Below, one piece after another: positions 34,741-54,185 of a stretch of 64,000 nucleotides of DNA. Below the pieces are notes generated by a model. It made no database searches and was not told the origin of the DNA. It saw only the letters and a list, made by a program, of their open reading frames with translations. Source of the DNA: Polytrichum commune (lineage: Eukaryota; Streptophyta; Polytrichopsida; Polytrichales; Polytrichaceae); NCBI GenBank assembly GCA_950295325.1, contig OX485809.1, positions 24,182,001 through 24,246,000 of the forward strand. Reading direction: 5' to 3'. Made by a program: the position numbers and the translations under genes. The stretch's first letter is position 1. Each line of letters begins with the position of its first letter.

Positions 34741-35019
34741 GCACGTAAAAAATATTCCTAATACTAAAAATAGAAAATTGCAATTATAATGAAAACGTGA
34801 ACTCCATGTGGAAAATAACAAGCGAATCTAAAAAACAAATGGTTTATGTCATTATAGAGTTTGGGGTGCGCATCCCATAAGTAAGGTTCTTATGGTTTTG
34901 GATGGCACATCCCAAACGTATACCACAATGGAGTGTGACAAGTCTACTAAGTCTATTAAAAACCAAGACTACTAAGCACTAATGTTTTTTCCCGCCGTTA
35001 ACTTTCACCTATGTTATGT
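34741..35019. other. 3-prime flank of the DUF7869-like gene
   Basis: AT-rich. Nothing is recognised; no inverted repeat matching a possible other end beyond 38.2 kb was found by eye. Confidence 0.4.
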
Positions 35020-38000
35020 TTACCCATCTCCATCTTCCGCTTCATATCCATTCTCGGCGTCATTTTCCGCAGCTGCAATACGTGCCAAGTTGTCTTTGGC
35101 AAAATCTATATGTTTTTGGGGGATGGTCATTGCTTCTGTGTTGGAACCTTTGCGCGGCTTCCAAGCACAAAGTATAGTATCCGTGTTTATCCAAACCGGT
35201 GTGTACGCTGAGTCCACTGTCCACTTAAAATTCTTTTTGGTGTCCCAACCTAAATAAGTGCGGAGCACGTTCTGGTCTTTAGTGCTTGGACGACAATATT
35301 CCATCTCAATTTGACGAAAGTTGGGGCTAGTTTGAACAAAATTGGGTGAAGACAATGCTTTTACCAACCAAATTGGCTTGGGATGCTCCTCATCCCCTGC
35401 TCGTACGAGGACCAAATACCCTTCATGGCAATCAATACCTACACGAAACGACGGTGCCGGTCGATTGCGGGCAGGGCCAACGTAATGCTCGTCCATTGCG
35501 AACTCTTCACGAACGTCTCTATTGCTGAAAAACATAGTATCGGACTCGACAACCGTCAAATGACTTTGTGGCCAAAATCCTTGTGTCAAAGTCGTACGGG
35601 TGTCGCCACCAAGTGTCATCAAGGCTGAGCGAATGCGATCCCAATACGCGATCAACGGTTCATGGGTATCTCTAACACGTCTTGTGATGTCCTCCTCGCA
35701 CAACTCTTTCCAATATTCAATGAATCCGGATATGCCTTTGATGATTTCCGGCCCATTCCTCATGGGTTCGGGTTTGCAAGGCTTTGGTTCCCCATCCGGG
35801 ACCAAACATTTCCCATCATTGTCTTGACGCCATACGAGTATACCATCATCCGGGCCCCAATTAGGAGATGTGCACAAAAGCTTGAATTGCATGGCCGGGA
35901 GACCATCGTCCCTCATATAAAATCGGAATTGTTGTGCTTTGGTATGCACCACCAAATGGTCCCCTCCCTTCAACATGTATGGCTTGATGAAGGCCTTGAA
36001 ATCTGGTACTTCCTCAATCAAGTGCGGAATTACTGGCATATGGTCCAAATCCATATACGATTTCATAAGAAGAGGTATGGTTGGAAAATCTTCTTCATGC
36101 AACTTCATGCTCCACCGTCTGAATGATGCATCAATGTCGTCGTGTGTATGTCCCACCATCAAGAAAGATACAAACACCTCCTTGAAGATTCCTTTCGCCA
36201 TGAGCAATGACCAAAAACAAAATACGTATCGACATTTGTTGTCCTTCGCACAATTATCAAGTTGAACGTGGAGAGTTGGAGGCAATGGTTTTGCACAAAT
36301 GGGTTCTCCGGGTGGTTCTGGCAATGACGACATACAAACCTTCTTCCCCGCAAGCACTGCCTCATAAAGGGATGTGGTTCCACAACCATCAAAAAGTGCA
36401 CGGGAAGAATGTACCGGTGGCTTTTCAAGATCGCGCAACAGTTTTGCAAATGAACCCACCGTGTGGTTAGCATCCCCAGGGTAAAAATCCAAACCATAAT
36501 GGGCATACTTTACGTCCCCATGGCTGTGGGCAATCATACCTGGAAAAAACAAATGATGCGTGACCAAAATAATCAAATAACCACTAAACGGATGTATGGA
36601 GTTGGACATTTGCCAAACACACCCAAGAAAATTGGATAGACTTTAAATACGTAGTTGTGATTTCATACAAACCTGTGACAGCTACGGGCAACTTGAAGAG
36701 ACCATCCGTGGCCTTTATTTTGCGTGCATAACAAGGGCATGCGGTTTTGGCGTGGTCCATTTTATCATGGATGACTATTAGAACCTCTGTGGGCCTCATT
36801 ATGGATAGAGCACGATTCTTATAGTAATATTGACGGTGTGCCTCTTGATTGTTGACATGCTCAATATATTTTTTCTGGTGTCTGGAATGAGATTCAGTGC
36901 CTATGGGGTGGGCGTCTCGAAGACCTTTGTATTTTTCACACGTCGTACATCTAGCGAACTTGTCCCCGGGTCTTTTCAGAATGTATTCCGCAAACTGCTG
37001 GTTTTTAATCACACTCAACTTGGACAAAGAAATGGGCCCACATCCCGCTATGCGACCCACTTCATTGATGTCCGTTAAGATGTTCTTCCATTTTGTGCCC
37101 GTGGGCAACACCATTTGAACAACCTTCTCCCCTGACGATAATGTCCTCGTCTTGTGGGGCATTGCATCGGCCAATGGCACTATGATGGTGGATAGTGTCG
37201 CGGACGCTTGCAGTGTAGCCTCCCTAGGTTTCTTTGTGCCCGAGTTGCCATGAAATCGAGAGCGGCGACCCAACGATGAATACCTTCGAAACCTATAAAA
37301 GTCAGCCTTGGAGACGGCGTGGATGGTATACCACGCTGTACAACACACATCAACATTCTCAAGTGTCAACACCTTATGCCCATGGGTATCATTGTGCAAA
37401 TTTCTGTGGACCTCGAGTTTCTTAGCCGACCTCATACGAAAATCCGCAAGCCACATCTCTTGACGCAGAGATCTAATTTTCTCCCGCGGGAAAAATTGGC
37501 AACATTTTCTCGCGCAACAATCCTTGCCGGACACTAGACGGATAGATTCGTCCCCCAAAAGCCGATCCCGTCGACGCTCCTTATCTCCGCGAGGCACACG
37601 GTTTGAATCATATCTACGGAGGCCTTTGCGAGGACGTGTTGTGGCCAACAAAGCTAATTGTGTTTGCTTATGCCACCGCTCATGATCCCACAAACTCACT
37701 TCCTCATGTAGAACTTGACGAAGCGGCCATCGACGCAAGGAAAATCTCCATGTCACCGGGACCTCTACCGGAAGCAAAGAGTTCAAGATGCACACGCCAA
37801 CATCATCGAGACCTAGGGCGTTGGCATCGACACAATTACGGGGATTGGAGTTTCTACATATGCCATCTGCCACCGGGACACCAACCTCGTTGAGTAGAAC
37901 GACATCAAGGCCAACTCATTGCTCCTTCCCGAAACCGGCACACAACGGAATGTCATCGTGGTCATCTCCGGAATGCAGAGATTGTTCGTGGACTTCCAAA

Positions 38001-38149
38001 GATTCATGGGAGGATGTATCCACAAACACCCCCCTCACGTTTGGCACACCATTACTATCTGCCGACGGGGAAAACAGTTCACATTCAGCATCGGATGACG
38101 ATGCATACGTCGACAACTCCAATGAACTATCACCCACATGCAACGCCAT
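35020..38149 (-). CDS. DUF7869-like transposon protein (two exons, one in-frame stop)
   Basis: Exon 1 runs 38149-36673, the intron 36672-36540 (133 nt, GT-AG), and exon 2 36539-35020. The joined frame has 998 codons, with a single in-frame TGA at codon 78 (37918-37916) after an acidic serine-rich leader. Exon 1 has a cysteine-rich stretch (CCARKCCQFFPREKI), a CTTCEKYK motif and IHDKMDHAKTACPC near residues 460-473. Exon 2 has HSHGD at about 498, LHVQLDNCAKDNKC near 582-595 and FLMVGHTHDDIDASF near 618-632. These spaced acidic blocks fit the DUF7869 family, which I take to be an RNase-H-fold DDE-type transposon protein; the catalytic assignment is inference. The splice join restores VTG-MIAHSHGD exactly. 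No ATG lies close behind the TGA, so the copy may be inactive. Confidence 0.75.
36540..36672 (-). other. intron of the DUF7869-like gene
   Basis: The donor is CACAG|GTTTGT and the acceptor TTTTTTCCAG|GTATG on the minus strand, phase 1. It contains in-frame stops and a pyrimidine tract before the acceptor. Unlike the introns of the ParB-like gene it contains no copy of the 22-bp dyad. Confidence 0.8.
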
Positions 38150-38471
38150 ACCGCCTAGACCAACCACCAGGAAATGATCAACCTAACCACCACCGCAATG
38201 CATACAAGAGAGGATAAAATATATGTGGAGATAAATGGCCCAAAATTGACAAACAAATTTTGGTGCACCATTGGAGAACCTCACACACAAAGACGAACGT
38301 GCGTCCCAAAAAAACGTTTTAAGCATACGTCTAGGAGCCTCACTAATGTAAACAATACATGGACAAAGAGGAGAACAATCGTTAGTCGTCTAGGAGGGCC
38401 CTGCTGTTCGGACCACCGCCTGTCCCCATACAACCGACGACGAAATCAGAAATCCGAGAACGCCACATGCA

Positions 38472-38493
38472 TTTACGAACGCGCGTTCGTGAC
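38472..38493. promoter_or_regulatory. 22-bp dyad, array start
   Basis: Left arm TTTACGAACG, centre CG, right arm CGTTCGTGAC. It is the equivalent of the dyad at 49849-49870 in the paralogous segment. Confidence 0.7.
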
Positions 38494-38752
38494 CTCAGTA
38501 ACTTCTCCATGTGCATCTGGCGGCCTTCGAGATCCCTCATCTGAGAGCACCCTCAGGAATATCGGTTTTGTAGGTCAAAGTACCATGTTGACTTAGGAAC
38601 CTGCGCGATATACTATCACAAGAGAACACTTGTCCAAACGCACAAAAGTAGTAAATCTGCAGATGATGCCTGAATCAACTCCAACAATATTTTGAACACT
38701 GAGCACCTCCATATTGTGAATTTCATTATGTTGACTTTTGCGTACCTACCCA

Positions 38753-38774
38753 TTTACGAACGGACGTTCGTAAA
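38753..38774. promoter_or_regulatory. 22-bp dyad extended to 30 bp
   Basis: Perfect arms with centre GA; the symmetry extends outward to CCCA/TGGG. Confidence 0.75.
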
Positions 38775-38914
38775 TGGGTGCGACCCTGTGTTCACATCCT
38801 TCACGGACGAGCGATGAGCATATTTTTCTTGCTAATCTGTGTTCATAAATTACTGCCATACTGATGTGCATGAATGAAGATGTGTTGCTGGATGCGTAGA
38901 CAATAATGACATGT

Positions 38915-39655
38915 ATTTACGAACGTACGTTCGTAAATTCCCGACCATCAGGTACCAATAGATACGGGTCAAATAAGTATGTATGATTCTCGAAGGCATA
39001 TTTACGAACGCACGTTCGTAAATGACTGTCATGGATTAAGTGCATGTCACTAACCATATGAGTACCTCAATCCAGAACATGCTCTCATGTGAGATTTACG
39101 AACGCACGTTCGTAAATTACCGACCATCAGGTACCAATAGACACGGGTCAAATATGTATGTATGAACCTCGAAGGCATATTTACGAACGCACGTTCGTAA
39201 ATAAATGCCATGGATGATGTGCATGTGACTATCCATGAGTAGCTCAATCCAAAACATGATCTCCTGTGGGATTTACGAACGCACGTTCGTAAAATTACCG
39301 ACCATCAGGTACCAATAGATACGGGTCAAATATGTATGTATGATCCTCGAAGGCATATTTACGAACGCACGTTCGTAAATAATTGCCATGGATTATGTGC
39401 ATGTAACTATCCATGAGTATCTCAATCCAAAACATGCTCTCAGGTGGGATTTACGAACGCACGTTCGTAAATTACCGACCATCAGGTACCAATAGATAAG
39501 GGTCAAATATATCTGCATGGTCCTCGGAGGCATATTTACGAACGCACGTTCGTAAATAACTGACATGGATTACGTGCATGTGACTGTCCATATGAGTAGC
39601 TCAATCTAGAACATGCTCTCATGTGGAATTTACGAACGCACGTTCGTAAATCCTT
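38915..39655. repeat. satellite array of about 178 bp with two dyads per unit
   Basis: Units start at 38915, 39094, 39271, 39449 and 39628 (periods 179, 177, 178, 179; the last truncated). Each unit carries two 22-bp dyads, the second 85-86 bp after the first, at 38916, 39001, 39095, 39180, 39272, 39358, 39450, 39535 and 39629. Shared unit text includes ACCGACCATCAGGTACCAAT and GTGCATGTGACTATCCAT. The centre bases are TA in the first dyad and CA in the others. Period and unit identity indicate recent amplification. Confidence 0.9.
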
Positions 39656-39681
39656 GCCATATACAGGTCCGAATCGTTTGT

Positions 39682-39981
39682 CTAAACCTGAAGCTCCTCA
39701 TCTTTACGAACGTGCGTTCGTAAAGTTCCGGTATTTACGGCGGTATATGCGGTAGGTACAGCCTGTACTTTACCTGGGTGGTGTAGGGTTGGCGCACACC
39801 AAATGGCTTGAGCGCGTTCGGTGAGGTCTGTAGAGCGCACACTTGCATGTGCCGCTGAAAAGAGCTTTGTTGTGGGGGGAAGAGCTTTAAGTACTTCACC
39901 CCGCTGGTTTAAAATCCCTTGGATGCTCTTTAAAAAGCGGATTCCCACCGCCTTGTTTGACCTAAGAATCTCCCATTCCAT
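39682..39981 (-). CDS. unrecognised 99-codon frame
   Basis: An ATG-started minus-strand frame with balanced composition and no recognisable domain. Its C-terminal end reads through the dyad at 39703-39724 (as RTHVRK). It could be an exon of an unknown gene or chance. A possible TATA-like ATTATATAAATA sits on the opposite strand near 39990. Confidence 0.2.
   Translation of the reverse strand: MEWEILRSNKAVGIRFLKSIQGILNQRGEVLKALPPTTKLFSAAHASVRSTDLTERAQAIWCAPTLHHPGKVQAVPTAYTAVNTGTLRTHVRKDEELQV
39703..39724. promoter_or_regulatory. 22-bp dyad, end of array
   Basis: Perfect arms, centre TG. It lies outside the 178-bp unit context. Confidence 0.7.
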
Positions 39982-41300
39982 CCATGCGGAATTATATAAA
40001 TAGCACTGTCATGTATGGAACATGCCTTGCATGCACGCCAACATATTGAAAATATATATATCGGTTGCACACCTTAGTTGTGACCAAGGTCTCATCGAAA
40101 TATATGTATATACATATATATATACATATACACACATATATACATATACATACATATATATATATATACACACATAATGTCTAAATATGGAGATGGTTAA
40201 CATTGAATATTTAATGATTTGCGACTAAGGTATGAAGTCCAAGTTAATTGACAATTGATGCCTAATAAAGTTATGAATGTCGAAGTCATAGATATATATA
40301 TACATATATACACATATACACACACACACAATGAGGTCAGAGTGGCTAAGAACATGTTGCGGACGCCCCTAAAATTATAGGTATCATATGTTTCACATCA
40401 AAAAAATGACCGTAATATGGTCACCAAGTGCATGAATACAACTAAAAAATCGGGTTAATCCATAATGGCTTGCACTAGGATAGATTGAGGACACTATGAA
40501 CTAATTATACCTAATAATATATGTAAGTTAGGTCTTCTTTCAAATGGTATCTAGGTGTGAAAATAAGGAATTAAAATGGCATGAGTAGGAAGGATTAATC
40601 AATTTGTAATGCTGCATAGTATGATAGCGTAATGATTATTGAGACTTGAAACCATACTAGCTACCGTAACGTTGAATCATAGTTACAATTATTATGTGTT
40701 TGACGTCCTATTGGAAATTGAATTTTCGTCCACTTGTTGTAAGGGTACGGATACACATTGGTTAAATATTTATTAGATCATTGGTGATATTTATAGTTGA
40801 ATGCATTGTTCGATTGTTAGTTTAAGTTGACACATGATTAAATGAGTTGAGGTCCTATTGGAAATAGACTTTTAGGGTTTGGGGAAATGCACTATTAATT
40901 TGGAATGGTGCATACAATAATATGTACTTACAATTAATATATGTTTTGCATCCTATGAGAAGGATGTGCATCATCATAGCTTAAAGTGTTGATATAAATT
41001 GAAGTCTTAAGACATGCATGTTATTATAATAAGATCGTGGATTGTGTGATGAAATTTCACTCAGAACTATTAAGGTGAAAGAGGGAATATTTGAAATTTC
41101 ACTTATCACCTAAACCAACGTTTTATCTCAAATCTATTAATTTGGAATGTGAAAATGACAATTGGCATCATTATCAATTATTATAGTTGTTATGAACGGA
41201 ATTAAGCATTCTCCATCCAACCAACATTGGTAGATCAATTTGACCTGCCCTCAGAAAACAACATGGCCACATATAAGAAAGGTTGGTAAGATAAAAAGAT
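39725..41300. other. intergenic with TA/CA microsatellites
   Basis: TATACATA/CACATATA tracts occupy about 40100-40175 and 40290-40330. The remainder is AT-rich without recognisable genes or dyads. Confidence 0.5.
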
Positions 41301-41398
41301 GTAGGGATGTAGGGTTTAGGGTTTGGGGGTAGGGTTTAGGGGTTTAGGGGTTTAGGGTTTGTGAAAGTTGTGTATGTGGTATTTGGGTTTAGGTTTTA
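41301..41398 (+). repeat. interstitial telomere-type repeats (TTTAGGG)
   Basis: Degenerate tandem GGTTTAGGG / GGGGTTTAGG / GTAGGG words lie at about 41301-41362, with a weaker piece at 41382-41398. The heptamer TTTAGGG is the Arabidopsis-type telomere repeat of plants and many green algae. The tract is short and interrupted. Confidence 0.75.
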
Positions 41399-42030
41399 GA
41401 TTGTTACTAGGATACATTACACACACAAACAATATTGACTCCTCAAAAACCCTTGTAATTGCACTAACTTCATTCATCGCAAGCTCGTAGTTGATGCTAG
41501 CAAAATAGTTGACCACTCCATAAATGCATTAGTTTAAGCTTACACCTAATATTGGAACTTGAATTGACATCCTATCGTATAGCAACTCTGCGCAATCTCA
41601 TATTATTATGAATTCCTTTTTGCATGTAATATTTATTTGAGGAACCATCGAATTAATTGAAAGATATCTAGCTCTTACATAAACTATATTTTAAAACACC
41701 ATATACATATCTTTGGGGGTGGATTCTACATTGACAACCTAGGAAATGACATGCATTGTTTATTACGAATTAACTGAGTATATTTTTCTAAAATATGTTT
41801 ACAAGGAATCCAAATGTAGAGGTACTAAGGAAATAAAACGAGTAAAATTCATGTATTTGAACTAAGCTTTTCAAGTTAATGCCTCAAACGCGTCCATTAC
41901 ATATAAATATGTCAAAGCATGAGAATAACATGAAGGGTTCCAATATACAACCATCTCCCATCTCCCATCGCATCCCATCCCATCCCTTCCCATCACCTCC
42001 CATACCATCCTATCCCATCTCCCTCCCAAC
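41399..42030. other. intergenic, ends in CCCAT microsatellite
   Basis: AT-rich until about 41950, then a CCCAT-type tract at about 41956-42020. No gene. Confidence 0.5.
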
Positions 42031-42125
42031 CCTAGCCAATGGAGTTGTGCCACGTGGCAGGTGCTGGGAAACCCTAGCGGCGCACCTACCTCCCCGCGCC
42101 CCTACCTCTTCTCCTCATTTGTCAT
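42031..42125 (+). promoter_or_regulatory. candidate promoter of the ParB-like gene
   Basis: GCCAATGG (CCAAT-box like) at 42035 and a perfect G-box palindrome, GCCACGTGGC, at 42049-42058 are followed by GC-rich DNA and a pyrimidine-rich CTACCTCTTCTCCTC stretch near 42102. The GC island lies 1.5 kb before the start codon and just ahead of a long leader-like repeat tract. No TATA box is obvious. Inference only. Confidence 0.35.
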
Positions 42126-42159
42126 TTCGAGGAGAGGAGGAGCGGAGCGCTTAGAGAGC

Positions 42160-42500
42160 GAAGCTCTTGCTTTTTTTAGTCTTGAAGTTTTAAATTAGTT
42201 TTGTTGCAAGTTTTGAGAGATTTCAGATTGAGAGCTTGTGTGAAAGCTTGTGAGTTTGTGAAAGCTTTCAGTGTGAGAGTTTGTGAGTTTCAAAAGCTTG
42301 AGAGCTTGAGTAGGAAAGCTTCAGAGTTTCGGATTGAGAGCTTGAGGGTGATCTTTAGAAGCTTCAGAGTTTAAGGAAGCTTCAGAGTTGAAGTTGAGAG
42401 TTTAGGGAAGCTTCAGAAGTGAAGCTTGAGAGTTTAGGGAAGCTTGAGAGTTAAGGGTTTGCTTAAGAGTTCAGAAGCTTGAGAGCTACAAGCTTGTGAG
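42160..42500 (+). repeat. GAAGCTTCAGAG-type degenerate minisatellite
   Basis: About 20 variants of (G)AAGCTT(C/G)AGAG(TT) separated by AGAGTTT-like spacers. The GAAGCTTC core is itself a palindrome and resembles a paired GAA/TTC heat-shock-element core. It sits where a 5-prime leader of the ParB-like gene would be. Confidence 0.6.
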
Positions 42501-42972
42501 TTTTGTGTACATGGGAGTATACTAGGGTTTGTATATAAGCTGTGAAGGCTTGAGGTCTGCATTAGAGAGTTATCTGAGTGTGCATTTGAAAGGCAATTGA
42601 GTGTGCAGTTGTGAGGATTTTTGGGATTTTTAGAAAGAGAAGAAGTAGGGTTTGAAGTGTGCAGCATTTCAATGTAATTTGTTATCCTTTCCAACTCCTC
42701 TCACATTATGAAAATGTTGCTTCTTGAATTCAATTTGTTTTGTTACATGCAATGTGAATTATCATTTTCTTCTTCATGTTTCATTCTGCATCTCATTCTG
42801 CATCTCAATTGCTTTATGATTCAAGATTTGCATCATTCTGACCAAAATTTTGCAGGCACGGCTGCAAGCAGAGTAGCTAATAAATGAGTTGTATACGTAT
42901 TCGTATATATACGAATACGCATATATATACGAACACGTATATGTACGGACAGGGGATCCCAAAACCATCACA
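42501..42972. other. leader or intron-like DNA before the dyad cluster
   Basis: No coding frame is supported. A TACG-rich tract (GTATACGTATTCGTATATAT) lies near 42890-42940. A splice donor for a 5-prime leader intron could be in this stretch but cannot be chosen. Confidence 0.35.
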
Positions 42973-43604
42973 TTTACGAACGCTCGTTCGTAAATGGACA
43001 TACACTGCATACCCACCTCCATTTACGAACGCTCGTTCGTAAATGGACATACACTGCATACCGAACCTCCATTTACGAACGTGCGTTCGTAAATACGCAC
43101 TGCACGTTCTTTGAAATGATCTATATTTACGAACGCACGTTCGTAAATATACTCAAAATATCACTCAGATGGAATCTTAACTTTAATATGAACCTCTACG
43201 AATATCTAAAGAACAAATATAAATTTGCGAACACCAATAAAACAAATCACATGTACTTACGAAAGATAAATCAACCAAATGTCCGACAAGATAGACCAAA
43301 TGGACGTACTTGCGAACGCACGTTCGTAAATAAAACCAAATCTATAAAACCTATATCTTTTACGAACGATCGTTCGTAAAAATAACCAAATATATTACAA
43401 ATACATTCATGACGAGTAGTCTCTTTGATGTTCATATCTTTTACGAACGCTCGTTCGTAAACTCAATACTAAAAATTTATATGATCTTGCAACCCCTCAT
43501 TTACGAATGAACGTTCGTAAATATAATTACATCAATTGCAAAGACGCATTAACACTGCGTAGTATGTGGGATATGCATGTCATTTACGAACGTTCGTTCG
43601 TAAA
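42973..43604. repeat. cluster of nine dyads upstream of the ParB-like start codon
   Basis: Dyads start at 42973, 43022, 43072, 43126, 43309, 43359, 43440, 43500 and 43583. The centre dinucleotides are CT, CT, TG, CA, CA, AT, CT, AA and TT, so the arms are constant while the centre varies. Spacing of the first four is about 50 bp. The start codon at 43633 directly follows TTCTGTTGCAG, a good splice acceptor, so the cluster probably lies in a 5-prime leader intron. Confidence 0.85.
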
Positions 43605-43632
43605 GTCACTAATTGTTTATATTCTGTTGCAG

Positions 43633-44928
43633 ATGGCGAGATCAAGCAGAAGCGCCATTGAGATGTTCGCGGTGAAGGTCAATGGCCTCCCAGAGTCAGT
43701 GTTAGACGATAACGGCAACGACAACTATGTCCCCAAGGAAGACTTCATGGGGGAGTGGACGGCACTGCCAGAGAAGATCGGGGACGGCCTCTTCTGCATG
43801 CGCTTCACCTACGAGCTGGAGACAAGACCGGACCAGCCCGAACAGTGGGTTCAAATGAAGACGTGGGAGATAGAGTCCATAGAGGCCCAGGGGGAGTATG
43901 TAATTCTGGACATGAAGAACAAGAAGGATCATATCAACCTCTTGTTGCATTTCCAGAAAAATACCTTCTCCTACCAATACGCCACCAATAACGTAGCGGA
44001 AGATGCCAAGCACTTCGACCTGGACGGCCTCTTCTCCAAATATGCGTTGAGCCCATACTGGACGGCAAGGAAATTGACCGCCCTGGCATTGAACATCTCC
44101 AAATACAACAGTGTGGTCACAGAGGCAAACAAGAAGAAGAAGAGCCCCAGGAAACCATCCACATCAGGGGCAGGAGGATCTAGAAGTGCACCTAGGCCTG
44201 TGCCTTCCGCTAGCAGAGCGACGGAGGGCCCCAGTAGACACTCCACGCCATCGAAGAGGACAAGGGAGGAGATGGAGAAATCGGGAGTAACAGAGACCGC
44301 GGAGGTGACCTCGCCTGTCGTAATGCCCACCCCCTTGAAAAAGGGCGAGAACCCTGACGCTGTGAAGGCCACGAGGATCCTTCGAGACTTCAACAACTAC
44401 TCGAAGGATTGCTGGCCCATGGGACGCCACTTCACATTCAACGTGGACTGCTTCAAGTGCGAGATGTCCCCCAACAAATGGGTGGTTCGGTCTCGCGAGA
44501 GCGGTGGTGTGAAGTGGCAGATAAATAATCTAATGAACAACGTCAAGTGGGACGTCTGCATCATGCCGAAGGGGCTGACATCCCGTCCGACGGAGAAGGA
44601 CTGGCCACGGATCCAGAATGGAGAGTTCTGGATCATAGACGGCCAACACAGCTTGGAGGCGTCCCAGATAATCCTCAAGGACGACAACTTCCAGCATGAG
44701 CTGAAGGAGGACTTGCGCTACTGGAAGGCGTTCTTGGTGTGGTCGGACGATTGGGACAAGCTGCGGAAGATATCCACCTTCCTCAACTCCGGCAACAAGA
44801 TCAAGGCCTTCGAGGCGTCGTGGGCAGCCAACATAGTGGCTGCAAGGGACGTCTGGGTCGCCTGGATCGCCCACGGGTGCCCCCCTAAAGAAAGGGAGAA
44901 CGCGAAGACGCCGTCTCCACAGTGGAAG
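43633..44928 (+). CDS. exon 1: DGQHS (ParB/sulfiredoxin-like) domain
   Basis: 432 codons from ATG to the donor AAG|GTGAGT. The signature WIIDGQHSLEASQ near residues 333-345 matches the DGQHR type of motif found in ParB/sulfiredoxin-fold nucleases and DndB-like proteins, with serine in place of arginine. It is followed by a hydrophobic WKAFLVWSDDWDKLRKIS segment and SWAANIVAARDVWVAW. A lysine/serine/proline-rich linker (about 156-215) separates this from an unassigned N-terminal domain rich in aromatic and acidic residues. Expected role: site-specific DNA binding or ATP/CTP-type switch as in ParB, but the substrate is unknown. Confidence 0.7.
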
Positions 44929-45049
44929 GTGAGTTTATGAACGAACGTTCGTAAATATCTTTGACATTCAAATTTTCAAGTTTTTTGACATTTAAATTTA
45001 CGAACGTGCGTTCGTATTTTGTGCGTTACTGATGCCTTTCTTGCTGCAG
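44929..45049 (+). other. intron 1 with two dyads
   Basis: GTGAGT donor, TTGCTGCAG acceptor, 121 nt, phase 0. The dyads at 44934-44955 (left arm TTTATGAACG, centre AA) and 44997-45018 (centre TG) make up over a third of the intron. Confidence 0.85.
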
Positions 45050-46369
45050 GCATTCTGCGACGCGATGGTGGACAAGTTCTCCTCCATCGACATGAAGTCT
45101 ACAACAACCAAGTCTGTCCTGGAGTTCAAGGGTGAGCTCCGCCTCATCTGTTGCAACAGGGACACTTGGGAGTTGTGGACACAATTTTTTGATGCGCACA
45201 GCTCGGGCGATCTGGTCAACCCCGACACGGAGGAGAAATACAACGCGGAGAAGACCGGGGAGGCCCCTCCACTACTGAGGGAGTTCTTCAGGTCCCTTCA
45301 AGGGTTAACAGAGTCCGAGTTGCAGAGGTGCGCGGTGCATCTTCTTGGGAACACAGTGGGAAGAACCATCCCATACCCGAAGATATTTTTGAAGAGGCCA
45401 AGACACAAGCCCGGCACGTATTCCATCAAGGAATGGTGCGAACACCGCAAGCTGAAGACTGTTGCAATGAGGGAGTTGAGCGCCCTAATACCAGAGTACG
45501 CACTCATCCTAGCCGACGGGGACATTAATTGGGCCAGCTAGAAGATGTTCAAGGTCGACTACAACATCTCCGGACCCTCAATGCGTTGTCTTGTCAAGGA
45601 GCACGCCTCCATTTTGAAGCAGAAGGGGAACAAGAGGACAACCGAGACGGATCCCGAGGAGGTGGAGCAATACAGAAGCTTTTTGGCGCGGAAGAGGTTG
45701 GCCACATTCGAAGGAGTGGCCAGATTTTGTTTGGTGACAACCGGAGTGGAGAGGGTCACATTTTCCAAGTGGGACTGGATCATGAGCAGGGCCGAGGTGA
45801 GGGAGGATCGACGGGGGTGCCCATTTGCCCTAATCGATTTCAGGGGGATCCCCGGTGCGTCGAGGCAGGGGGGGAAGGACATCCCTTTCTACGACCCCTT
45901 CATGGCCAAGTTCAGGGAGCACAAGTCTTCGGACATGAGGGAGCCTCACGTTTGGCTGTGGATAGTGGAGCAGGAAAAGCTCTCTGCTGTAGTCGACCTG
46001 TACGAGAAGACGATCAAATTCGAGTACAGCATCTTCCACAACACTTACGTGCCCGCCAAGACGGAAGGGATCGTGGCCATCAACGAGGCCAGGGGAAACA
46101 AACAGGTGGGGGCGGTCAGCCTCGTCTTCTTGACGTACAACGCGCTTCGGAATGGGCGAGCCCCTGTCAGGGCGAATACTACGTTCAAGAAGATCTACAG
46201 CATCCCCCATCCCCCTCCCAAGGATCTGCTGCAGGAGACCTTGCACACTGTCTTCCCGGTGATGGAACTCAGGTTGGAGTTCTACGTCTCCGTTTTGCAG
46301 AGCGTGGCAATAAGCGGAGAGACCGTGTACAACGTTTGTGGAGGCAACAAATTCATGTACGCTGCGATG
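45050..46369 (+). CDS. exon 2: methyltransferase-like region with in-frame TAG
   Basis: 440 codons, phase 0 at both ends, donor GCGATG|GTAAGC. TAG at 45539-45541 follows INWAS and is followed in frame by KMFKVDYNIS, so the frame is otherwise intact. The C-terminal part has a beta-class DNA methyltransferase layout: a possible degenerate motif IV (FALIDFRGIP, D at 695), then a strand SLVFLTYNALRNG, then a motif-I-like GETVYNVCGGNKFMYAAM near 855-872 followed by MLGLVVNSF in exon 3. The usual DPPY and DPFxGxG residues are replaced, so catalysis is doubtful. Assignment is by pattern only. Confidence 0.6.
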
Positions 46370-46510
46370 GTAAGCTCTCCAACTAATATTTACGAACGCT
46401 CGTTCGTAAAGTTCACCTCAACTTGTCTTGGGTTTTGATGACATTGTTTCTCGTCGTTGATGTTTACGAACGCATGTTCGTATATTCTAACGTATTTGCT
46501 TGAATCTCAG
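46370..46510 (+). other. intron 2 with two dyads
   Basis: GTAAGC donor, TGAATCTCAG acceptor, 141 nt, phase 0. Dyads at 46389-46410 (centre CT) and 46463-46484 (centre CA, right arm decayed to TGTTCGTATA). Confidence 0.85.
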
Positions 46511-46654
46511 ATGCTGGGGCTGGTCGTCAACAGCTTCATTGAAGCCATCGACGAGGAGGACTTCCACGTGCACAGGGCAAAGGCCTCCACGATGGACCTG
46601 GAGGACATGTCCCTCCCGAGGACGGACATCAACATGCCCGTCGATGAAGGCATG
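46511..46654 (+). CDS. exon 3, part before the solo LTR
   Basis: 48 codons from ATGCTGGGG to GGCATG. It finishes the methyltransferase-like domain (MLGLVVNSFIEAIDEED) and enters a linker (MDLEDMSLPRTDINMPVDEG). The last five bases, GCATG, are the target duplication of the LTR. In the interrupted gene the frame runs on into the LTR and stops at 46705. Confidence 0.75.
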
Positions 46655-48526
46655 TGTGAGCCCAAAAGGGTGCCCACATTTAGTCTTAGACCCTTGAAAC
46701 GTTAGTTGATGCACTTTGAAGTAGCATGTTACTTCACAAAAATATAAAAAGAGTGAAATGTTAGTCTTAGAAGTACCATGTTGTAAGAGGCTAGGATGTG
46801 AGTTGTTATTGTGTTTTTACCTTCGGAAGGATTTGAGTGAATGAGGATAGGTAAGGAGAACTTGGATTGAGTAGTTAGTGAGTAAGCTAGTACAAATGGA
46901 TGGAGACAACCAAAGTGACTCAAGAGGCAAGTGCATTCGAATTGGGATGAATGGAGGATCACATGGAGCGCACAAGTGGACCACCTCATCATGGCCACTT
47001 AATGGGGAAGGCCCAAGGAAGAATGCAAGGTGGAGGATAAACAAATTCTCAAAGCACCAATCAAATCACGAGTTAAGCATCGTGGTTTGAATTAAGTGGT
47101 GAGCGACGATTTGGGAAAGTAAGGGGAGAAAGTTATGGCGGCGGAAAGCGAAGGAGGCTAAGTTTGGGTTGAAGCATCCCAAGTTTGGTAAAGTGTGGTA
47201 GGTAGAAAGCCAAGGCTAGTTAAATGCTCGAATTAGGATCCTTGTTGATCATTTGAGGGAGGAAGGCTTAGAAGATAGGATTGGCGCCTACTAAGTAGGA
47301 GGAAATCTCAAGGGCTTATCGTGAGCCTTGAGGGTGCTCACCCCCTCAAGCTTACTATATAATCCCTCATTCTTCCCTCACTCATCCTCTCTTTCCTTTG
47401 TGCTCCAAGGCACCGAGTTATAAGTGTGGGTGTGGGAAGCCATATTGGAGCACATGTGTGTGCTTAGTTTTTAGTTTGAGAGCCAAGGCTTGTTAGCCTT
47501 GAAGAGGGCTTGACCTCTTGGTAGAATTAGTGTTGACGTGAAGGATTTTAAAGTTAATTCATGATTCCAATTTGTGGTACTTTAAGTTCATGTTTTGAAT
47601 ACACGTGGTTGCAAGTTCCATGTTTAAGAGTTGAGCACTTGATGTTGTGATGAGTGCAAAAATATACTTGTGTGGATTAGTTAGTCTTAGTGAAGTTAGG
47701 AAATTCTCTCTCCCCCTCTCCTCTCTAGGATTTTAGGATTTTAGGATTAGAGAAGAATTGTGTGATTAGAAAGGGGTTGTTAGTAGAATTAGGGAAATTA
47801 GGTAGGAAGATTAGTTAAGGGCTTGAATAATTAGTGAGGTAGTTGGGGATTACAACTACAAAGTTGTGGGTTCATGAAGGAGCTGGGTTTATGAAGGAGC
47901 TGGGTTTGTTTAGTTAGAAAGTAAAGAGCTGGGTTTATGAAGGACCTGGGTTTGTTTAGTTAGAAGCTAAGGAGCTGGGTTCATGAAGGAGCTGGGTTCA
48001 TGAAGGAGCTGGGTTTGTTTAGTTAGAAGCTAAGGAGCTGGGTTTATGAAGGAGCTGGGTTTGTTTAGTTAGAAGCTAAGAAGCTGGGTTTATGAAGGAG
48101 CTGGGTTTATGAAGGAGCTAGGTTTATGTAATTAGAAAGTAAAGAGATGGGTTCATGAAGGAGCTTAGTAGATAGCCTACCTAATTAGCTCATAGACAAG
48201 TAGTTAGTTACATTATGCTAGTTAGTGTTATGTGTGGCTTTCACAAGTAAATGTATTTGAGATTGACTATAGAGAATAGTGTTTTTTTTAACACTTGCAT
48301 CCTCTCTTTAAAAATAAACCACGTGCACAACTTAATGGAGAATGTGGAGCACTCTCGCGATGGCAAGACAAAGGAAGCAAAGACCAAAGTTAAATCCAAG
48401 ACCACTTGAAGGGTGAACCTTGCACTATGGACTCATCCAAGTCCAAATCCAATACCGCGGAGGAATGTGAGCCCAAACCCACTACTCGGACTACGGACGC
48501 TTAAGGGTGGGGGGTTTGGCCTCACA
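46655..48526 (+). mobile_element. solo LTR, 1,872 bp, 5-bp TSD, family L
   Basis: It starts TGTGAGCCCAAAAGGG and ends GGTTTGGCCTCACA (TG...CA with short inverted termini TGTGAG/CTCACA). It is flanked by GCATG at 46650-46654 and 48527-48531. No primer-binding site, second LTR or coding region follows, so it is a solo LTR. Both ends and several inner blocks (CCTACTAAGTAGGAG, CGCTTAAGGGTGGG) match the copy at 55778-57022. A TATA-like ACTATATAATCCC near 47353 and AATAAA near 48312 fit LTR promoter and polyadenylation signals. A minisatellite of GAGCTGGGTTTATGAAG units fills about 47876-48170. Confidence 0.9.
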
Positions 48527-48531
48527 GCATG

Positions 48532-49836
48532 CCCGCCATGGAGACGGACGACGACGAGCCCGCGCCCTCCTACAACGTCGAGGCGATCCTCCGATCCTTG
48601 GACGTAACTCCTCTCCGCATTTTGGCGCCGTCGGGAAATCCATCCGACGTGCAAGGGACTCCGGGTGGATACACGGGGTCGTCGGCGGGGACAACCCAAG
48701 ATGTCCCCCCCGCAAGAACGTCTGGAGCGGAGGCATTCGGCACTCCCGGGGGATGCTCGACATCCGTGTTGCCCAGGCCGATCGTGGTTCCGAAGATGGA
48801 GAACCTCGACCTTCTGGACCAACGGTCCCGACCGACGTTGGACCAGTACCGTAACACGAGGCGGAGGATGAAGAAGACCCCCTACGTGGAGCTGCCTCCG
48901 GGGGCAATCATCGAGGTCTCCGATGAGGACGAGGGCGACATGGAGATCATGGTCGAGCTGGGGGTAGACTTTGACAAAAACAAGAGGGTCAAAGAGGAGG
49001 CGTTGTCCGTCGCCGAGCTTAACGCCAAGCTCGAGCAAAAGATGAAGGAGGACATGGCGAAGGCGGCAGAGGAGAATGCCAAGAAAATGTTTGCAATTCA
49101 GGAGGAGCTGAGGCAGTCAAACGAGAAGACGGACGCCATCCTCGCCATGCTCCAGCGTATGCAGAGCTTCTCGGCGCCCCCCCAGCCGGCCTACCCCTTC
49201 CCTGGAGGATACCCCTCCCAATCCCCTCCACCGGGCATGTTCACCGGAGGGCCTTCCCGCCAGCAGGCGCCCCACCTGACGCCTGTTGGCACTCCTCCGC
49301 CACCAGAGGTTCCCTCGACCACCTCCCACGATGCTGTGGCGGCGGCCATCCAGGAGGACGAGGATTTACGAACGCGCGTTCGTGAATCTTCAGGTCCTCC
49401 AGTCCTCACCCCTCCCCCTTCAAGGGTAGGACTGCCCTCATACACCGATGCGTCGTCTTTCACCGTCGTCCCCAGGGTAGTAGACAGACATGGCGATGAC
49501 TCTACGCGACACACTGACATGGTCATTGTGGAGGACACGCAGGGGAGCCCCAATGACGCACCAGGGATGCATGGGATGGACGTGGAAGAAACCCATGTGG
49601 CGTGGATGGAGGATGTCAGGATGGACGCGCTCGACCTGGGCGCCGAGGAAGAAGACGCGCTGCGCATCCAGGCGACACAGGCGTCTCAACCGGAGCGTGA
49701 GGCAGAGGCCATGGAGACAGAGGCGGCTGCAGCTATGGAGGTTACGAACGCGCGTTCGTTAATCGTTGAGGAGGGACCTGCTGCTCGGTCCAGCGCCGCT
49801 GCCCCTCCCCCCGATGACGATGTAACTCTCCTCTGA
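48532..49836 (+). CDS. exon 3, part after the solo LTR: disordered, SIM-like and coiled-coil tail
   Basis: 434 codons in frame with the part before the LTR (…DEGM + PAMETDDDEPAPS). It contains a hydrophobic-acidic IIEVSDEDEG motif of the SUMO-interacting type, a lysine/glutamate-rich coiled coil (KRVKEEALSVAELNAKLEQ onward), a Pro/Gly/Gln-rich stretch (QPAYPFPGGYPSQSPPPG), and an acidic Met/Glu/Ala-rich end, DDDVTLL. Dyads lie inside the coding frame at 49365-49386 (read DLRTRVRES) and 49741-49762 (read VTNARSLIV). The ending is either the TGA at 49834-49836 or a splice donor DDD|GTAACT at 49822. Confidence 0.65.
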   Translation, partial: PAMETDDDEPAPSYNVEAILRSLDVTPLRILAPSGNPSDVQGTPGGYTGSSAGTTQDVPPARTSGAEAFGTPGGCSTSVLPRPIVVPKMENLDLLDQRSRPTLDQYRNTRRRMKKTPYVELPPGAIIEVSDEDEGDMEIMVELGVDFDKNKRVKEEALSVAELNAKLEQKMKEDMAKAAEENAKKMFAIQEELRQSNEKTDAILAMLQRMQSFSAPPQPAYPFPGGYPSQSPPPGMFTGGPSRQQAPHLTPVGTPPPPEVPSTTSHDAVAAAIQEDEDLRTRVRESSGPPVLTPPPSRVGLPSYTDASSFTVVPRVVDRHGDDSTRHTDMVIVEDTQGSPNDAPGMHGMDVEETHVAWMEDVRMDALDLGAEEEDALRIQATQASQPEREAEAMETEAAAAMEVTNARSLIVEEGPAARSSAAAPPPDDDVTLL

Positions 49837-49848
49837 GAATACCATTTT

Positions 49849-50307
49849 TTTACGAATGCGCGTTCGTAACCTCTCTAACATCGCGATGTTTTTCTCTTCA
49901 TCGACATCCAGTGGCCTTGCGAGAGCCCTCTTCAGCGGTCCCCCTTAGGGCCGAACAGTTTTGTAGGACACGACATCATTTTGCCTTAGGAAAATGTGAT
50001 AGACTATCACGTGAGAAATGTAAATATTCAACGGATTAATATATGAGCCTATGTTATCTGCATCGCGTTGCTTCAAATTCTCTGTCCTCGACCCCTTCTC
50101 GTATATTGTATATGTTGATGAGATTATGTTCATTCTTGCATACCCACCTCATTCGCGAACGCTCGTTCGTGAAAGGGTGCGACCCACTGTCCACCTCATT
50201 CGCGAACAACCGCTCGTAAATGTACGTGTAGCCGCGCTCACGAACGACCGCTCATAAATGATGCGCACCGCCCCCGCAGCCTTCATTCACGAATGCTCGT
50301 TCGCAAG
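49849..50307. repeat. five decaying dyads downstream
   Basis: Copies at 49849-49870, 50152-50173, 50199-50220, 50237-50258 and 50286-50307 have progressively diverged arms (TTTACGAATG, TTCGCGAACG, TTCGCGAACA, CTCACGAACG, TTCACGAATG). If the FCP1-like exon belongs to the same gene, these lie in its third intron (49822-50439). Confidence 0.7.
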
Positions 50308-50439
50308 TGTGCCCTTGAGCACATTTTCCTTGCACTCTCCTCACTTCCTGGTCTTTCCCCATAATGCACCGTCTTCATTTTCTACGCAAAATTTCATTAT
50401 TGGATCATAGAATTAAACTAGTCAAGTTGTTCATCACAG

Positions 50440-51207
50440 GACCCCCCGGAGATAGGTCGCAACCCCTCGACCAGTGGACCTCCCACCCGGCACAAACCTT
50501 TCATCGTTTTTGACCTCAACGGGGTGTTGTGTCACACCCAACACATCCCAAGGATCCCCACGCGTCCCTTTCGTCACCCCGACGAAAGGGACTACGACGG
50601 CGAGCTCGACACCCTCATTAACCGCAAGGCTGTCCGCGCCCGTCCCGGCTTGCGTGACTTCCTTCGCGAGGTGGTCGAGTTCGCTCACGTCATTGTGTGG
50701 AGCTCCATGGTCATGGAGAACACAGAGCCCATCGTCCACTTCTTGTTCCGCGATCTCCCGAGCCCGTGCCTCGTCCTCGGCCAAGAGGACTGCGACGAGC
50801 TGCTCGACGAGAAAGGTCAACCGGTGCCCAAGTTTGGCAGTCGGGGCGGAGGACAACAGTTCCTCAAGGTCCTCCGCTCGAGACTCTGGCGAGGCGTCCC
50901 CCGTCTGCAAGGGACGCCGCACGGGTGGTGGCCGACTCCAGAGAACACCGTCCTCATCGACGACAACCCCACCAAGAGCGTCTTGAACCCCCCGGGAAAC
51001 GTCATCTTCCCGGACACTTGGACCGGCGATAGGCAAGACACATTTTTGGTCGATAGGCTAGCCCCCTACCTTAGAAGGCTCGTGCTCCACGCCGGTAGCA
51101 TCCCATTTTTTGTTAGGTCCAACCCCATCGGCAATGCGGCACTAAGCCCCCGCGATAATGTATTCAAGAGCATCATGAGGCTCGCCAAACTCAATAAATT
51201 GATTTGA
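50440..51207 (+). CDS. FCP1/NLI-interacting-factor-like HAD phosphatase domain exon
   Basis: The frame opens after an acceptor TTCATCACAG|GACCCC with no in-frame ATG upstream, so it is an internal or 3-prime exon (up to 255 codons to TGA at 51205-51207). HAD motif I is FIVFDLNGVLCHT near codon 25: the nucleophile aspartate is kept, and the second aspartate of DxDx(T/V) is asparagine, a DLNG form I recall from plant FCP1-like proteins. Motif II is HVIVWSSM (about 83-90) and the distal acidic motif VLIDDNPTK (about 171-179). Expected activity is phosphoserine/CTD-type dephosphorylation, possibly weak given D-to-N. Phase-0 junctions allow it to be spliced to the ParB-like gene. Confidence 0.7.
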   Translation, partial: DPPEIGRNPSTSGPPTRHKPFIVFDLNGVLCHTQHIPRIPTRPFRHPDERDYDGELDTLINRKAVRARPGLRDFLREVVEFAHVIVWSSMVMENTEPIVHFLFRDLPSPCLVLGQEDCDELLDEKGQPVPKFGSRGGGQQFLKVLRSRLWRGVPRLQGTPHGWWPTPENTVLIDDNPTKSVLNPPGNVIFPDTWTGDRQDTFLVDRLAPYLRRLVLHAGSIPFFVRSNPIGNAALSPRDNVFKSIMRLAKLNKLI

Positions 51208-51318
51208 AATGCCTCCATGTCTTTGCTTGTATCATGTGGTTCACATTTACTAATGCTTGCTTCGTTTTTGGATGTCTTTTGTTGTTGTGATTGTTGTTGT
51301 TGTTGTTCTTGCCCATAG

Positions 51319-52355
51319 TCTGCCCCCATATGCGACGCCCCTGTGGTCGACGTCCCTTCCCGTCCCCTCTCGCCCCCTGCCTCCCCTTCCCGCGACGTCA
51401 CGGACTTCCAAATGCCATCCCTCTACCAGTTCTCGGCGGTCGACGCGGCCTCGGCTGTGGATTACTCCCGCGACATCGGCATCGACGACGGCGTCGTCAA
51501 CAACCCGCCCCCCGCACTTGTCGCCCGCGCCTACGCCCCGTCGCCCTCCCCCCTCTCCAAGGAGAAACGGACGCTCGTTCGTTTGGGGCACCTCTCGCCC
51601 TCTAAGGACGACGCCGTCGCTCGTCGCGGGCCGAGCCGGCGTCTCCGCATGGAAGGCCCCCGTTGCCACACCTCCCCCGCCGACTCCGTTCCTCCCCCCG
51701 CAACGTCCTCCGCCATCGTGGGCCCTCCACGCCTCGACTCCCCCCCGCCACTCACCAATACAATAGTTCCATCGGCTCCGGATGCTCCCATCGACGCCCC
51801 CCTCATTCCCACCGTTCCCCGCATGGACGTCCCCAAAGCCAAGGTGCCCTCCTCAACCCTAAACCCCTTTCCCGCTTTTGCTTCCCTTGTCTTCCGTTTG
51901 CGTGCCGTTCTCTTTACGAGCGCCCATCCCAAACCGCCCTCATTATTTTCCCCACTCCATTCCTATTCTTATCTTCCTATGACGTTGTTTCACAGGTGGC
52001 TACCCGCTCGCTTGGTGCCCAGCCCTCCTCCACGTCCTCCTTGGATAGGCACGCCCTCAAGGCCGCATCTTCCGAGTCCGATCGTTGTCTGGCCCTCCGG
52101 AGAAGCGCAAGACGTTCCCTTTCGCAAACACCCTCGCATTCTACTTATAATACCACCTCTTACAATTCGGGAGCGCGTCCTGAAACATGCAAGAACGACA
52201 CATATTCCTGTCCAGGCAACACACAAGGATACAGTCGTGGGCCTGAGATTTTTAGAGCCATGGAGGCCGCCAAAAAAAAGGACTTAGCCGCCAAAAAAAT
52301 AGTGGGTCGCACTAGTGTGACGTCTAGAAGCGTACTAGTGGGACGGACTCCCTAA
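51319..52355 (+). CDS. proline-rich protein, two candidate exons
   Basis: Exon a, 51319-51843, follows the acceptor TTCTTGCCCATAG and reads SAPICDAPVVDVPSRP then VTDFQMPSLYQFSAVDAAS. Exon b, 51996-52355, follows TTGTTTCACAG and reads VATRSLGAQPSSTSSLD to VLVGRTP and a stop. The join KAK|VATRS is phase 0, intron 51844-51995. The protein is Pro/Ser/Ala-rich with basic ends and no domain I recognise. There is no ATG at the start, so an upstream exon is needed; the FCP1-like exon has phase-0 donors (for example AAT|GTATTC at 51160) that would fit. A half-dyad (ACGCTCGTTCGTTTG) lies in frame near 51569 as RTLVRLG. Confidence 0.45.
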
Positions 52356-52700
52356 ATGGGCTTAGGTGTAGAACATATTTAAGTGCTTACTTTCTATGCT
52401 ATTCCAAGTTACTCAAGACATTGATGGTATTTCCATTATAATTGTATTTCAATCCCAATTAATTCATTCAACTTCCATTCATTCTTCGCATCTTCCTTTC
52501 CATTCATAACGAGTTGTCATTTCATACGCAACTATTCTCATGTATGCCTCACATTTTTGTTCACTTCCATGCCTTTATGTATAATAATAGTAGCATACCA
52601 TTATACATATGGGATTTTTAGTCGTCATTACTGGTCCAATTTTGAAATGTGCATCGTTATATAGTCTCATAATCAACAAAAAGTCTCCAAATACCGAATA
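52356..52700. other. intergenic, no gene supported
   Basis: AT-rich 3-prime flank. Nothing is recognised. Confidence 0.45.
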
Positions 52701-54185
52701 TAGTGTTAAATTCTTCACACTCACGAACCCATAATTGGAGAGGGACTTTGCCTTTCTCACCTTGGCTGAGGAAGCAAGGAATGTCATCTTGGAGAGTGGG
52801 ATGACCTACAACTATGAAAAACTTACAGTGAGCATCACCCACGAAGAAGAAGCCAGCAACCCGTCCGAGCTCCACATAAGCACCACACTAGTTGCCAACA
52901 ACCTCCCCCCCAAAGAATCCTCAAGCCGCCATCATCAAGACCATTAAGAAGCTTTTCAAAGACAACAACATTGTAAGAGTGAGTTTCGGGCATGCACAAA
53001 GATGATAGGCAATCTAGATAGTGCCACATCCAGTGTCTTAATGTTGCCAACTACACCGAATGATTGAACAAGTTGGCATACATCCTTGGGTGATGCATCG
53101 ATTTCCTACCTCATAAAGGGAGTATCGATAAATAAGAGCCGAACAAGAACGCCATCCTGCTTGACCAAGCTCCAACCCGAGAAGCCATTGCTCCAAAAAT
53201 ACAAGCCATGAACAATGTCGCGGCCACACACATAATGGTTACCATGAAGCACTTTGACTAAGCAATGCAAGATTGAAAAGAAAAGCTCGAGGTGGTGACT
53301 CAAAATACACTCAAACAAAACTACAAATCACTCAACTTCTACATACTAAAGCAACCCACACAACAAACACCCACAAACCAATAAAAACACATGTACATAG
53401 TAGACCTACAATACCTCTTACTCAAAGGAGGAGACATTCAACCTAACACGCTACATACACCTAGCCGAAATCTTTGAGCCATACATAAATCAACAAAAAA
53501 CCACACCTAACACCACATCACTCCAACACCTATTAAGACTCAACCTCCTCCTCAATACATAACCCCCACACCATAGACTATTTGCATTTATCGTATCATT
53601 AAGCCCCCTACATGAAAGATGCAATGAGCAACTAAGCACTAGACCCAATCCTCGATGCCTCAAAATCCTTAGACGATTACACAACCTCCCCCAAAACAAC
53701 CCACATGACTACCTAGGCCAACAACCAATAGACACCCCCTTCATATACATATCACCCTACCACTCTCAACTTCCACCAATACAATTGCCCACAACCTCAT
53801 AAACAATAATCTAGCCAAAGGAGAACCCATCATTCATACTTCACTCACACAAGAATTACCATTCATCCCAAACAACCTCATTAAGGAACTAATAAAAAAC
53901 ACACATACCATTCAAGGACACCACCATAATCACAACATGCCACAACACATGCCAACAACACCACAACACCACAACACCACAACCACACAACCACACAACC
54001 ACACAACCCCTCAAACCCCACATCTACCTCCCTCTCCATGATCACATAGAATGCAAGCCACATTAGCTATGGTCTATCAAGATATACGACCTAAGTCTCA
54101 AAAACCTAGCCAAGGAAAACGCGCCAGGCCTAGACAACATCCCAAATGAAATCCTGAAAGCCCTTCCCAACAGATTCCACGGCCT

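Follow-up and report, generated by a model that had tools for sequence, protein, structure and literature searches.

The 64,000-nucleotide stretch of the Polytrichum commune genome analyzed here (the window; C7:24182001-24246000 of a 408-Mb assembly of 64 contigs, with about 406 Mb in the seven largest) contains a family of 22-bp palindromic dyads, TTTACGAACG-NN-CGTTCGTAAA. These dyads sit within a many-copy chromosomal DNA transposon with terminal inverted repeats (TIRs), not in one special locus. The transposon carries a DUF7869 gene and, divergent from it, a gene named here after its DGQHS motif. The dyads have a recurrent placement around these genes, they are constrained in sequence, they are retained in derivatives without genes, and they are class-specific, matching the class of the encoded protein. 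Comparison of the copies, together with analogy to the VANC proteins of VANDAL transposons, leads us to lean modestly toward the following reading: the dyads would be cis-acting recognition sites of the transposon, bound by its own long DGQHS protein, and would provide class-specific self-recognition that is likely VANC-like.

Dyads and the Transposon That Carries Them

At up to four mismatches, 32 dyads were found over the whole window, 19 of them exact. At up to three mismatches 29 were found, with none expected (100 shuffles). The first dyad starts at 38472 and the last ends at 50307. The count and the span given in the first-pass annotation are borne out, and no dyads lie elsewhere in the window. 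The confinement to one locus that it reported holds inside these 64 kb and not in the genome, where 2909 exact dyads were counted (0 for the reversed control pattern). By the exon model (Table 1), 30 of the 32 dyads lie outside coding exons. Twelve form the array that precedes the DUF7869 gene, nine are in the leader of the DGQHS gene, and two, two, and five are in the introns of the latter. The exceptions are the two dyads in the coding sequence of exon 4, at 49365 and 49741.

The centre of the dyad is free, as all 16 dinucleotides were found there among 264 dyads with up to three mismatches from 10 sequences. A transcribed dyad could fold into a stem of 9 bp closed by a 4-nt loop, and most dyads are in presumably transcribed noncoding parts; an alternative is therefore that they work at the RNA level, where hairpins of leader and intron sequence would take part in splicing, processing, or small-RNA biology. 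In the same 264 dyads, C>T and G>A changes are balanced (41 and 38), whereas pairing in RNA would accept only one of these changes in the strand that is transcribed; as this count is pooled over strands, it argues only weakly against hairpins. We regard an RNA role as improbable. A search of the window for RNA families found none.

Three copies of the element, A, B, and C, were read over 20 kb each. Their protein identity to the window is 99–100% for A and B and 88% for C. Homology to the window begins at 34615 (A) or 34613 (C) and stops at 52708 (A) or 52707 (B). Within the stretches read, copy B is not homologous to the window on its left side, nor is copy C on its right. Both window ends have AACACTATATTCG, with GGAGACTTT a few bases on. 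In the genome, this terminus occurs, when a base other than A is required 12 bp outside it, 485 + 527 times, against 3 + 5 times for the reversed control. Among the first 100 listed terminus places, all on contig C1, 15 of the 17 adjacent opposed end pairs no more than 20 kb apart have identical 4-bp flanks. Copy A is flanked by AGTG at both ends, and a perfect 4-bp duplication was not found at the ends of the window copy. Copy A has 31 dyads (array 10, leader 9, introns 2, 2, and 5, and another 3 in what was taken as exons 3–4), and copies B and C have 20 and 22 dyads. A further piece shared with the copy C stretch (its 7603-7952; 80% match) lies outside the window's element, at 61509-61846.

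Genome-wide, 97 of 1083 candidate copies of DGQHS exon 1 were scored, so that 97 is a lower bound. For 59 of them, a divergent DUF7869 match is located 4–12 kb upstream (random expectation 0.07; 82 scored DUF7869 matches were used for pairing), and for 51, a place encoding the NLI-interacting-factor (NIF) domain follows 3.5–8 kb downstream on the same strand (88 such places, hand-picked from the listing). Co-localization of the dyads was assessed for 50 distinct window-type dyads with an AT centre listed on contigs C1-C3, of 142 in the genome. For thirty of these, a scored exon 1 of the window class is no more than 3 kb away, with 0.08 expected; for 39, either such an exon or a hand-picked window-type NIF place is no more than 12 kb away. 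None is within 12 kb of the 41 exon 2 copies of the second class, described below as class D, listed on the same contigs. The pattern search of the genome thus supports the association of dyads with DGQHS genes. The first-pass annotation had named dyads scattered through the genome without DGQHS genes as evidence against its reading; the dyads are indeed scattered genome-wide, but most accompany the gene or belong to derivatives of the element that lack it.

A Second Class with Another Dyad

The class D element (C1:7843596-7861063) has a 4-bp duplication, the same gene order, and 13-bp ends identical to those of the window class. The window-type dyad was not found in this element even at six mismatches. 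It contains another 22-bp dyad, GTTTGGGTCG-NN-CGACCCAAAC, in 42 copies, of which 31 are exact (up to four mismatches). Their sites mirror those of the window class, with an upstream array, a leader, and the introns that follow exons 1 and 2; exon 4 has two further dyads, the next intron has one, and a few weak ones are elsewhere. A genome search for the 20-bp core of this dyad gave 9731 occurrences, and its control gave none. Of 1230 candidate matches to class D exon 2, 95 were scored, and they form two groups (97–100% and 79–81%).

The two dyads do not occur together in any of the 17 sequences scanned: ten have only the window dyad, four have only the other, and three have neither. Five further members for this check were picked from the NIF list. 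The second dyad alone was found in L047 (E), L048, and L049, which are assigned to class D by exon 2 (79% for L047, 82% for L049, and 80% for L048, the last by an adjoining exon 2); the first dyad alone was found in L053, assigned to the window class by exon 2 (84%), and in L050, assigned to it by exon 4 (56–76%). The L047 element was entered for exon 2 and dyads only: it has no exon 1 match, the sequence at the expected place of exon 1 looks foreign, and there is a stop in the presumed exon 2. Sequences at C1:56.97-56.98 Mb (L052, L054) were considered as a potential third class and rejected, having no DGQHS-gene homology and neither dyad; the same applies to another NIF gene, L051.

Judged from these sequences, the dyad changes together with the protein class. 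The TIR core is identical between the classes and the DUF7869 proteins are 64% identical, whereas the DGQHS proteins (exons 1–2, class D against copy A) are only 38% identical over 852 aligned positions; thus, the change of the dyad goes with the fast protein and not with the transposase and the ends. With conserved ends and a conserved DUF7869 protein in both classes, but a different dyad and a diverged DGQHS protein in each, the DGQHS protein is the better candidate for the reader of the dyad. When the exon 1–2 protein is compared in 40-residue blocks, residues 241-320 and 761-800 are at least 95% identical between copies A and C, which share a dyad, and at most 38% identical between A and D. 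These block identities suggest that a search for the reading head should begin with residues 241-320 and 761-800.

The existence of two classes bears on the idea that the dyads are sites of a host transcription factor hijacked by the element. Arrays upstream of both genes would suit such a factor. However, the two classes have the same layout, and their dyads differ in the arms in accordance with the class of protein that the element encodes; one host factor would not explain two codes. We consider this explanation unlikely.

Gene-Less Derivatives and Constraint on the Dyad

Four shorter elements with TIRs (L041-L044), chosen from the terminus places listed, were read, and their gene content was determined by tblastn (E ≤ 1e-3). 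By this search, L041, L042, and L043 have no DUF7869 and no exon 1, 2, or 4 of the DGQHS gene; they retain only an NIF remnant, 66–73% identical. The numbers of dyads in them are 46, 40, and 50, respectively, and therefore gene-less derivatives keep and even enlarge the arrays. L044 (C1:21542800-21550450) is a deletion derivative flanked by CTTA and CTTG, in which the DUF7869 gene and part of the NIF region are kept, exons 1, 2, and 4 of the DGQHS gene are lost, and nine dyads are left.

The retention of dyads in gene-less derivatives that still have TIRs would also be expected of accessory transposition sites, comparable to subterminal repeats bound by an accessory protein, which would serve to pair the ends or to control excision. 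Multi-site arrays are typical of accessory transposition proteins. The dyads of copy A, however, are internal: the left end is about 3.8 kb away and the right end about 2.4 kb, and the dyads follow leaders and introns, not ends. In the shorter derivatives the dyads come to within about 1 kb of the ends, so the internal position is not decisive. An accessory role is a minority possibility.

Over 30 close copies, the window's included, mismatches are rarer in dyad arms (25/6520) than in flanking noncoding sequence (139/19306; Fisher p 0.003), and changed CpGs are rarer in dyads (14/1304) than in flanks (20/559; p 5e-4). Divergence of the window from copy C is 11% in the arms (22/200), 44% in flanking noncoding sequence (232/532), and 17% in coding sequence (435/2604); by Fisher test, the arms differ from the flanks with p 2e-18 and from coding sequence with p 0.04. 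Given shared ancestry and an alignment possibly drawn by the dyads, all these p values are only indicative.

The same data can be set against tandem-repeat amplification without function. Some dyads do lie inside a 179-bp tandem. Dyads outside this tandem are also kept, though, their centre is free and their flanks have diverged, and class D has independent arrays of another dyad. Functionless amplification seems very improbable.

The DGQHS Protein and the ParB Question

The first-pass annotation recognized a ParB/sulfiredoxin-like signature in the gene next to the dyads. The DGQHS sequence is indeed present in the exon at 43633-44928, and FW(I/L)IDGQHS(L/V)EAS is kept in all four aligned sequences of both classes. 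The likeness, however, consists of the short motif alone and has no ParB profile behind it; the GxHR-type motif of ParB has Arg at the position where DGQHS has Ser. No ParB match was obtained for exon 1 or exon 2 in Pfam, or in NCBIfam, PHROGs, or PADLOC. A search of the whole genome with PF02195 at E ≤ 10 gave four matches; these are located on contigs C10, C12, and C23, and none of them coincides with a DGQHS gene. Two profiles searched against PDB sequences (E ≤ 10) found no ParB or sulfiredoxin and only three unrelated chains (E 0.038, 0.92, and 1.7). Membership in the ParB/sulfiredoxin family by sequence profile is unsupported in every library and genome search, and for this reason the DGQHS protein is not filed as ParB. 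An AlphaFold2 model of residues 211-432 from single-sequence input has a mean predicted local distance difference test score of 34.7, a confidence too low to speak for or against a ParB/sulfiredoxin fold.

The four PF02195 (ParB_N) matches are outside the seven large contigs and are perhaps bacterial contamination. Relatives of exon 1 or of its DGQHS part were not confirmed in viral contigs or prokaryote genomes (plasmids were not searched), and none was found in phages at E ≤ 0.01. Matches below threshold were not used: N-SET for window exon 2 (E 0.012), SPX (E 0.028) and ATF7IP_BD (0.77) for class D, PD-T4-6 (0.055), and weak NCBIfam and PHROGs rows.

A ParB–parS partition or centromere-like system would fit the DGQHS motif and the palindromes clustered near its gene. 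It fits poorly with a chromosomal TIR transposon that has target duplications and with the lack of any ParB profile match, and we give it the lowest probability of the explanations considered. The earlier proposal was of a self-recognition, segregation, or transposition system; self-recognition stands as the best reading, and nothing suggests partition, the unit being a chromosomal TIR transposon.

Proposed Self-Recognition

In the mechanism that we propose, the long protein with DGQHS, coiled-coil-like, and NIF parts would bind the dyad. The 10-2-10 build with its free 2-bp centre suggests that it would probably do so as a dimer, with one 10-bp half site for each subunit. Sites in the upstream array, the leader, and the introns would allow the protein to find copies of its own class, autonomous or not, and to act in trans. 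The most likely outcome would be that the element is kept expressed or is de-repressed, through VANC-like anti-silencing or activation. The dyad and the version of the protein are particular to each class. Both the binding of the dyad by the DGQHS protein and the resulting anti-silencing are what we infer.

Several points weigh against this reading. Eleven of the 50 sampled dyads are near no gene piece among the matches listed, one of them between a TIR pair. The alignment that indicates constraint may have been anchored by the dyads, and its copies are of shared descent. Changes in the dyads are mostly one-sided, 218 against 19 symmetric (up to four mismatches). An array is also located upstream of the DUF7869 gene, and the DUF7869 protein is therefore formally possible as the binder. 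The NIF domain, being only 43–44% identical between the classes, could track the dyad too. No DNA-binding domain is above the cut-off in the DGQHS protein, the nearest being HTH_70 in class D exon 2 (E 0.14). Finally, only two dyad classes were found.

By analogy, we tentatively suggest, at somewhat less than an even chance, that VANC-like anti-silencing evolved independently in another transposon superfamily, where a fusion of DGQHS with a domain resembling phosphatases of the RNA polymerase II C-terminal domain would read a class-specific 22-bp palindromic code carried in the introns and leaders of the transposon's own copies. The related suggestion, drawn from the sequences of the two classes, that this code switched between the TTTACGAACG and GTTTGGGTCG arms together with the protein is held with the same reserve. 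If true, plant transposons evolved sequence-specific self-recognition on more than one occasion, here by means of a different protein and a code of palindromes. The two protein–dyad pairs that occur naturally in one genome, each with many near-identical copies, would then make code switching, the reading part, and exemption from silencing directly testable, and thousands of sites per genome would offer matched protein–operator pairs for plant work.

Genes of the Element and Other Features

Table 1. Features of the transposon copy in the window
Feature	Coordinates	Strand	Evidence
Whole DNA transposon copy, TIR to TIR, including later insertion 46655-48526	34615..52707	.	Homology limits and ends AACACTATATTCG.../...CGAATATAGTGTT
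Left terminal inverted repeat AACACTATATTCG	34615..34627	+	
Right terminal inverted repeat	52695..52707	-	
DUF7869 gene for a putative transposase; its two open frames, 35020-36609 and 36584-37873, overlap	35020..37873	-	PF25273 E 9.3e-39 on first frame
Dyad array, 12 dyads, mostly within 179-bp tandem repeat; upstream of DUF7869 gene	38472..39724	.	
Leader / presumed 5' intron of DGQHS gene, 9 dyads	42973..43604	.	
Exon 1 (432 aa), FWIIDGQHSLEAS motif	43633..44928	+	97 scored genome matches, 87–100% identical
Intron, dyads at 44934 and 44997	44929..45049	+	
Exon 2, in-frame stop 45539-45541	45050..46369	+	
Intron, dyads at 46389 and 46463	46370..46510	+	
Exon 3, interrupted by insertion	46511..46654	+	
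Insertion resembling a long terminal repeat (LTR), 1.87 kb, TG...CA, GCATG both sides; splits gene, no part of system	46655..48526	.	
Exon 4, coiled-coil-like and proline-rich part; dyads 49365 and 49741 in coding sequence	48527..49821	+	
Intron, dyads at 49849, 50152, 50199, 50237, and 50286	49822..50439	+	
Exon 5, NIF (FCP/SCP-like) phosphatase domain, motif DLNGV	50440..51207	+	PF03031 E 2.6e-16

The DGQHS region, the coiled-coil-like part, and the NIF-type phosphatase domain probably belong to one long gene. The two genes apparent in the right half of the window copy are probably one, because copies A and B lack the LTR-like insertion, which is missing at this place in both; a reversed copy of it is found elsewhere in the left part of the B stretch. 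In copy A the frame is open through exons 1–3 to the end of exon 4, followed by an intron and then the NIF exon. Splice sites were set by eye and alignment, the gene model coming from genomic sequence alone. The in-frame stop in exon 2 is common to the window copy and copy B and absent in copy A. The window gene is thus broken twice, by the insertion and by the stop; intact copies exist in the genome. In exon 4, a HAUS-augmin3 match is sub-threshold only (E 3.4e-4).

The catalytic motif of FCP/SCP phosphatases is DxDx(T/V). In the NIF domains of both classes (exon 5 of the window and L045 of class D) it reads DLNGV, with the second Asp changed to Asn, so phosphatase activity is doubtful; the domain may serve for binding rather than cutting. 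This changed active site is kept by the transposon.

The DUF7869 protein is the putative transposase. No Mutator family was matched in Pfam, and a literature search on DUF7869 found no papers. The acidic motifs IHDKMDHAKT, QLDNCAKDNK, and GHTHDDID are common to the DUF7869 proteins of both classes and could represent a DDE-type set.

Other repeats were noted in the window. Inside the element, at 41310-41360, there is an interstitial TTTAGGG-like run, which we take to be of the plant telomere type. A 109-bp tandem repeat with 5.8 copies and 96% matches is located at 24412-25047, and tandem arrays with periods of 23 to 113, including 28, 44, and 67, are at 56216-56688.

Comparison with Known Systems

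TnpA of the En/Spm (CACTA) transposons binds repeated subterminal motifs and is linked to transposition and promoter demethylation; its sites are not palindromic, and the element has CACTA TIRs and a 3-bp target site duplication (TSD). The moss element resembles it in having many short sites and an element-encoded candidate protein, and differs in its palindromic sites, AACACTATATTCG ends, and 4-bp TSD. With ParB–parS and the DGQHR/ParB-fold proteins it shares a DGQH-x motif and palindrome clusters near the gene; unlike them, it has Ser for Arg in the motif, no sequence-profile support, and the setting of a eukaryotic TIR transposon. Sola transposons make 4-bp target duplications. Sola1 is listed for Physcomitrella (PMC9033089). 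The moss element may be likened to this superfamily in its 4-bp target duplications and its presence in a moss.

Among the literature matches listed, VANDAL/VANC is the only comparable system. The VANC motifs of Arabidopsis VANDAL elements are short and occur at high density in upstream regions and introns; their arrays expand as tandem repeats, and the motifs diverge along with the protein (PMC5735166; PMC10398659). Anti-silencing is demonstrated there for VANC, whereas for the moss element it is proposed by analogy. The candidate protein here is a DGQHS–NIF phosphatase fusion, and a candidate DUF7869 transposase with 4-bp TSDs is found in place of a Mutator-like transposase. The VANC21 motif is a 9-base sequence arrayed in one orientation, unlike the 22-bp palindrome described here. 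The two systems agree in an element-encoded candidate protein, in motif arrays located in introns and upstream of the element's own genes (PMC5735166), and in a motif and protein that diverge together between families, here between two classes only.

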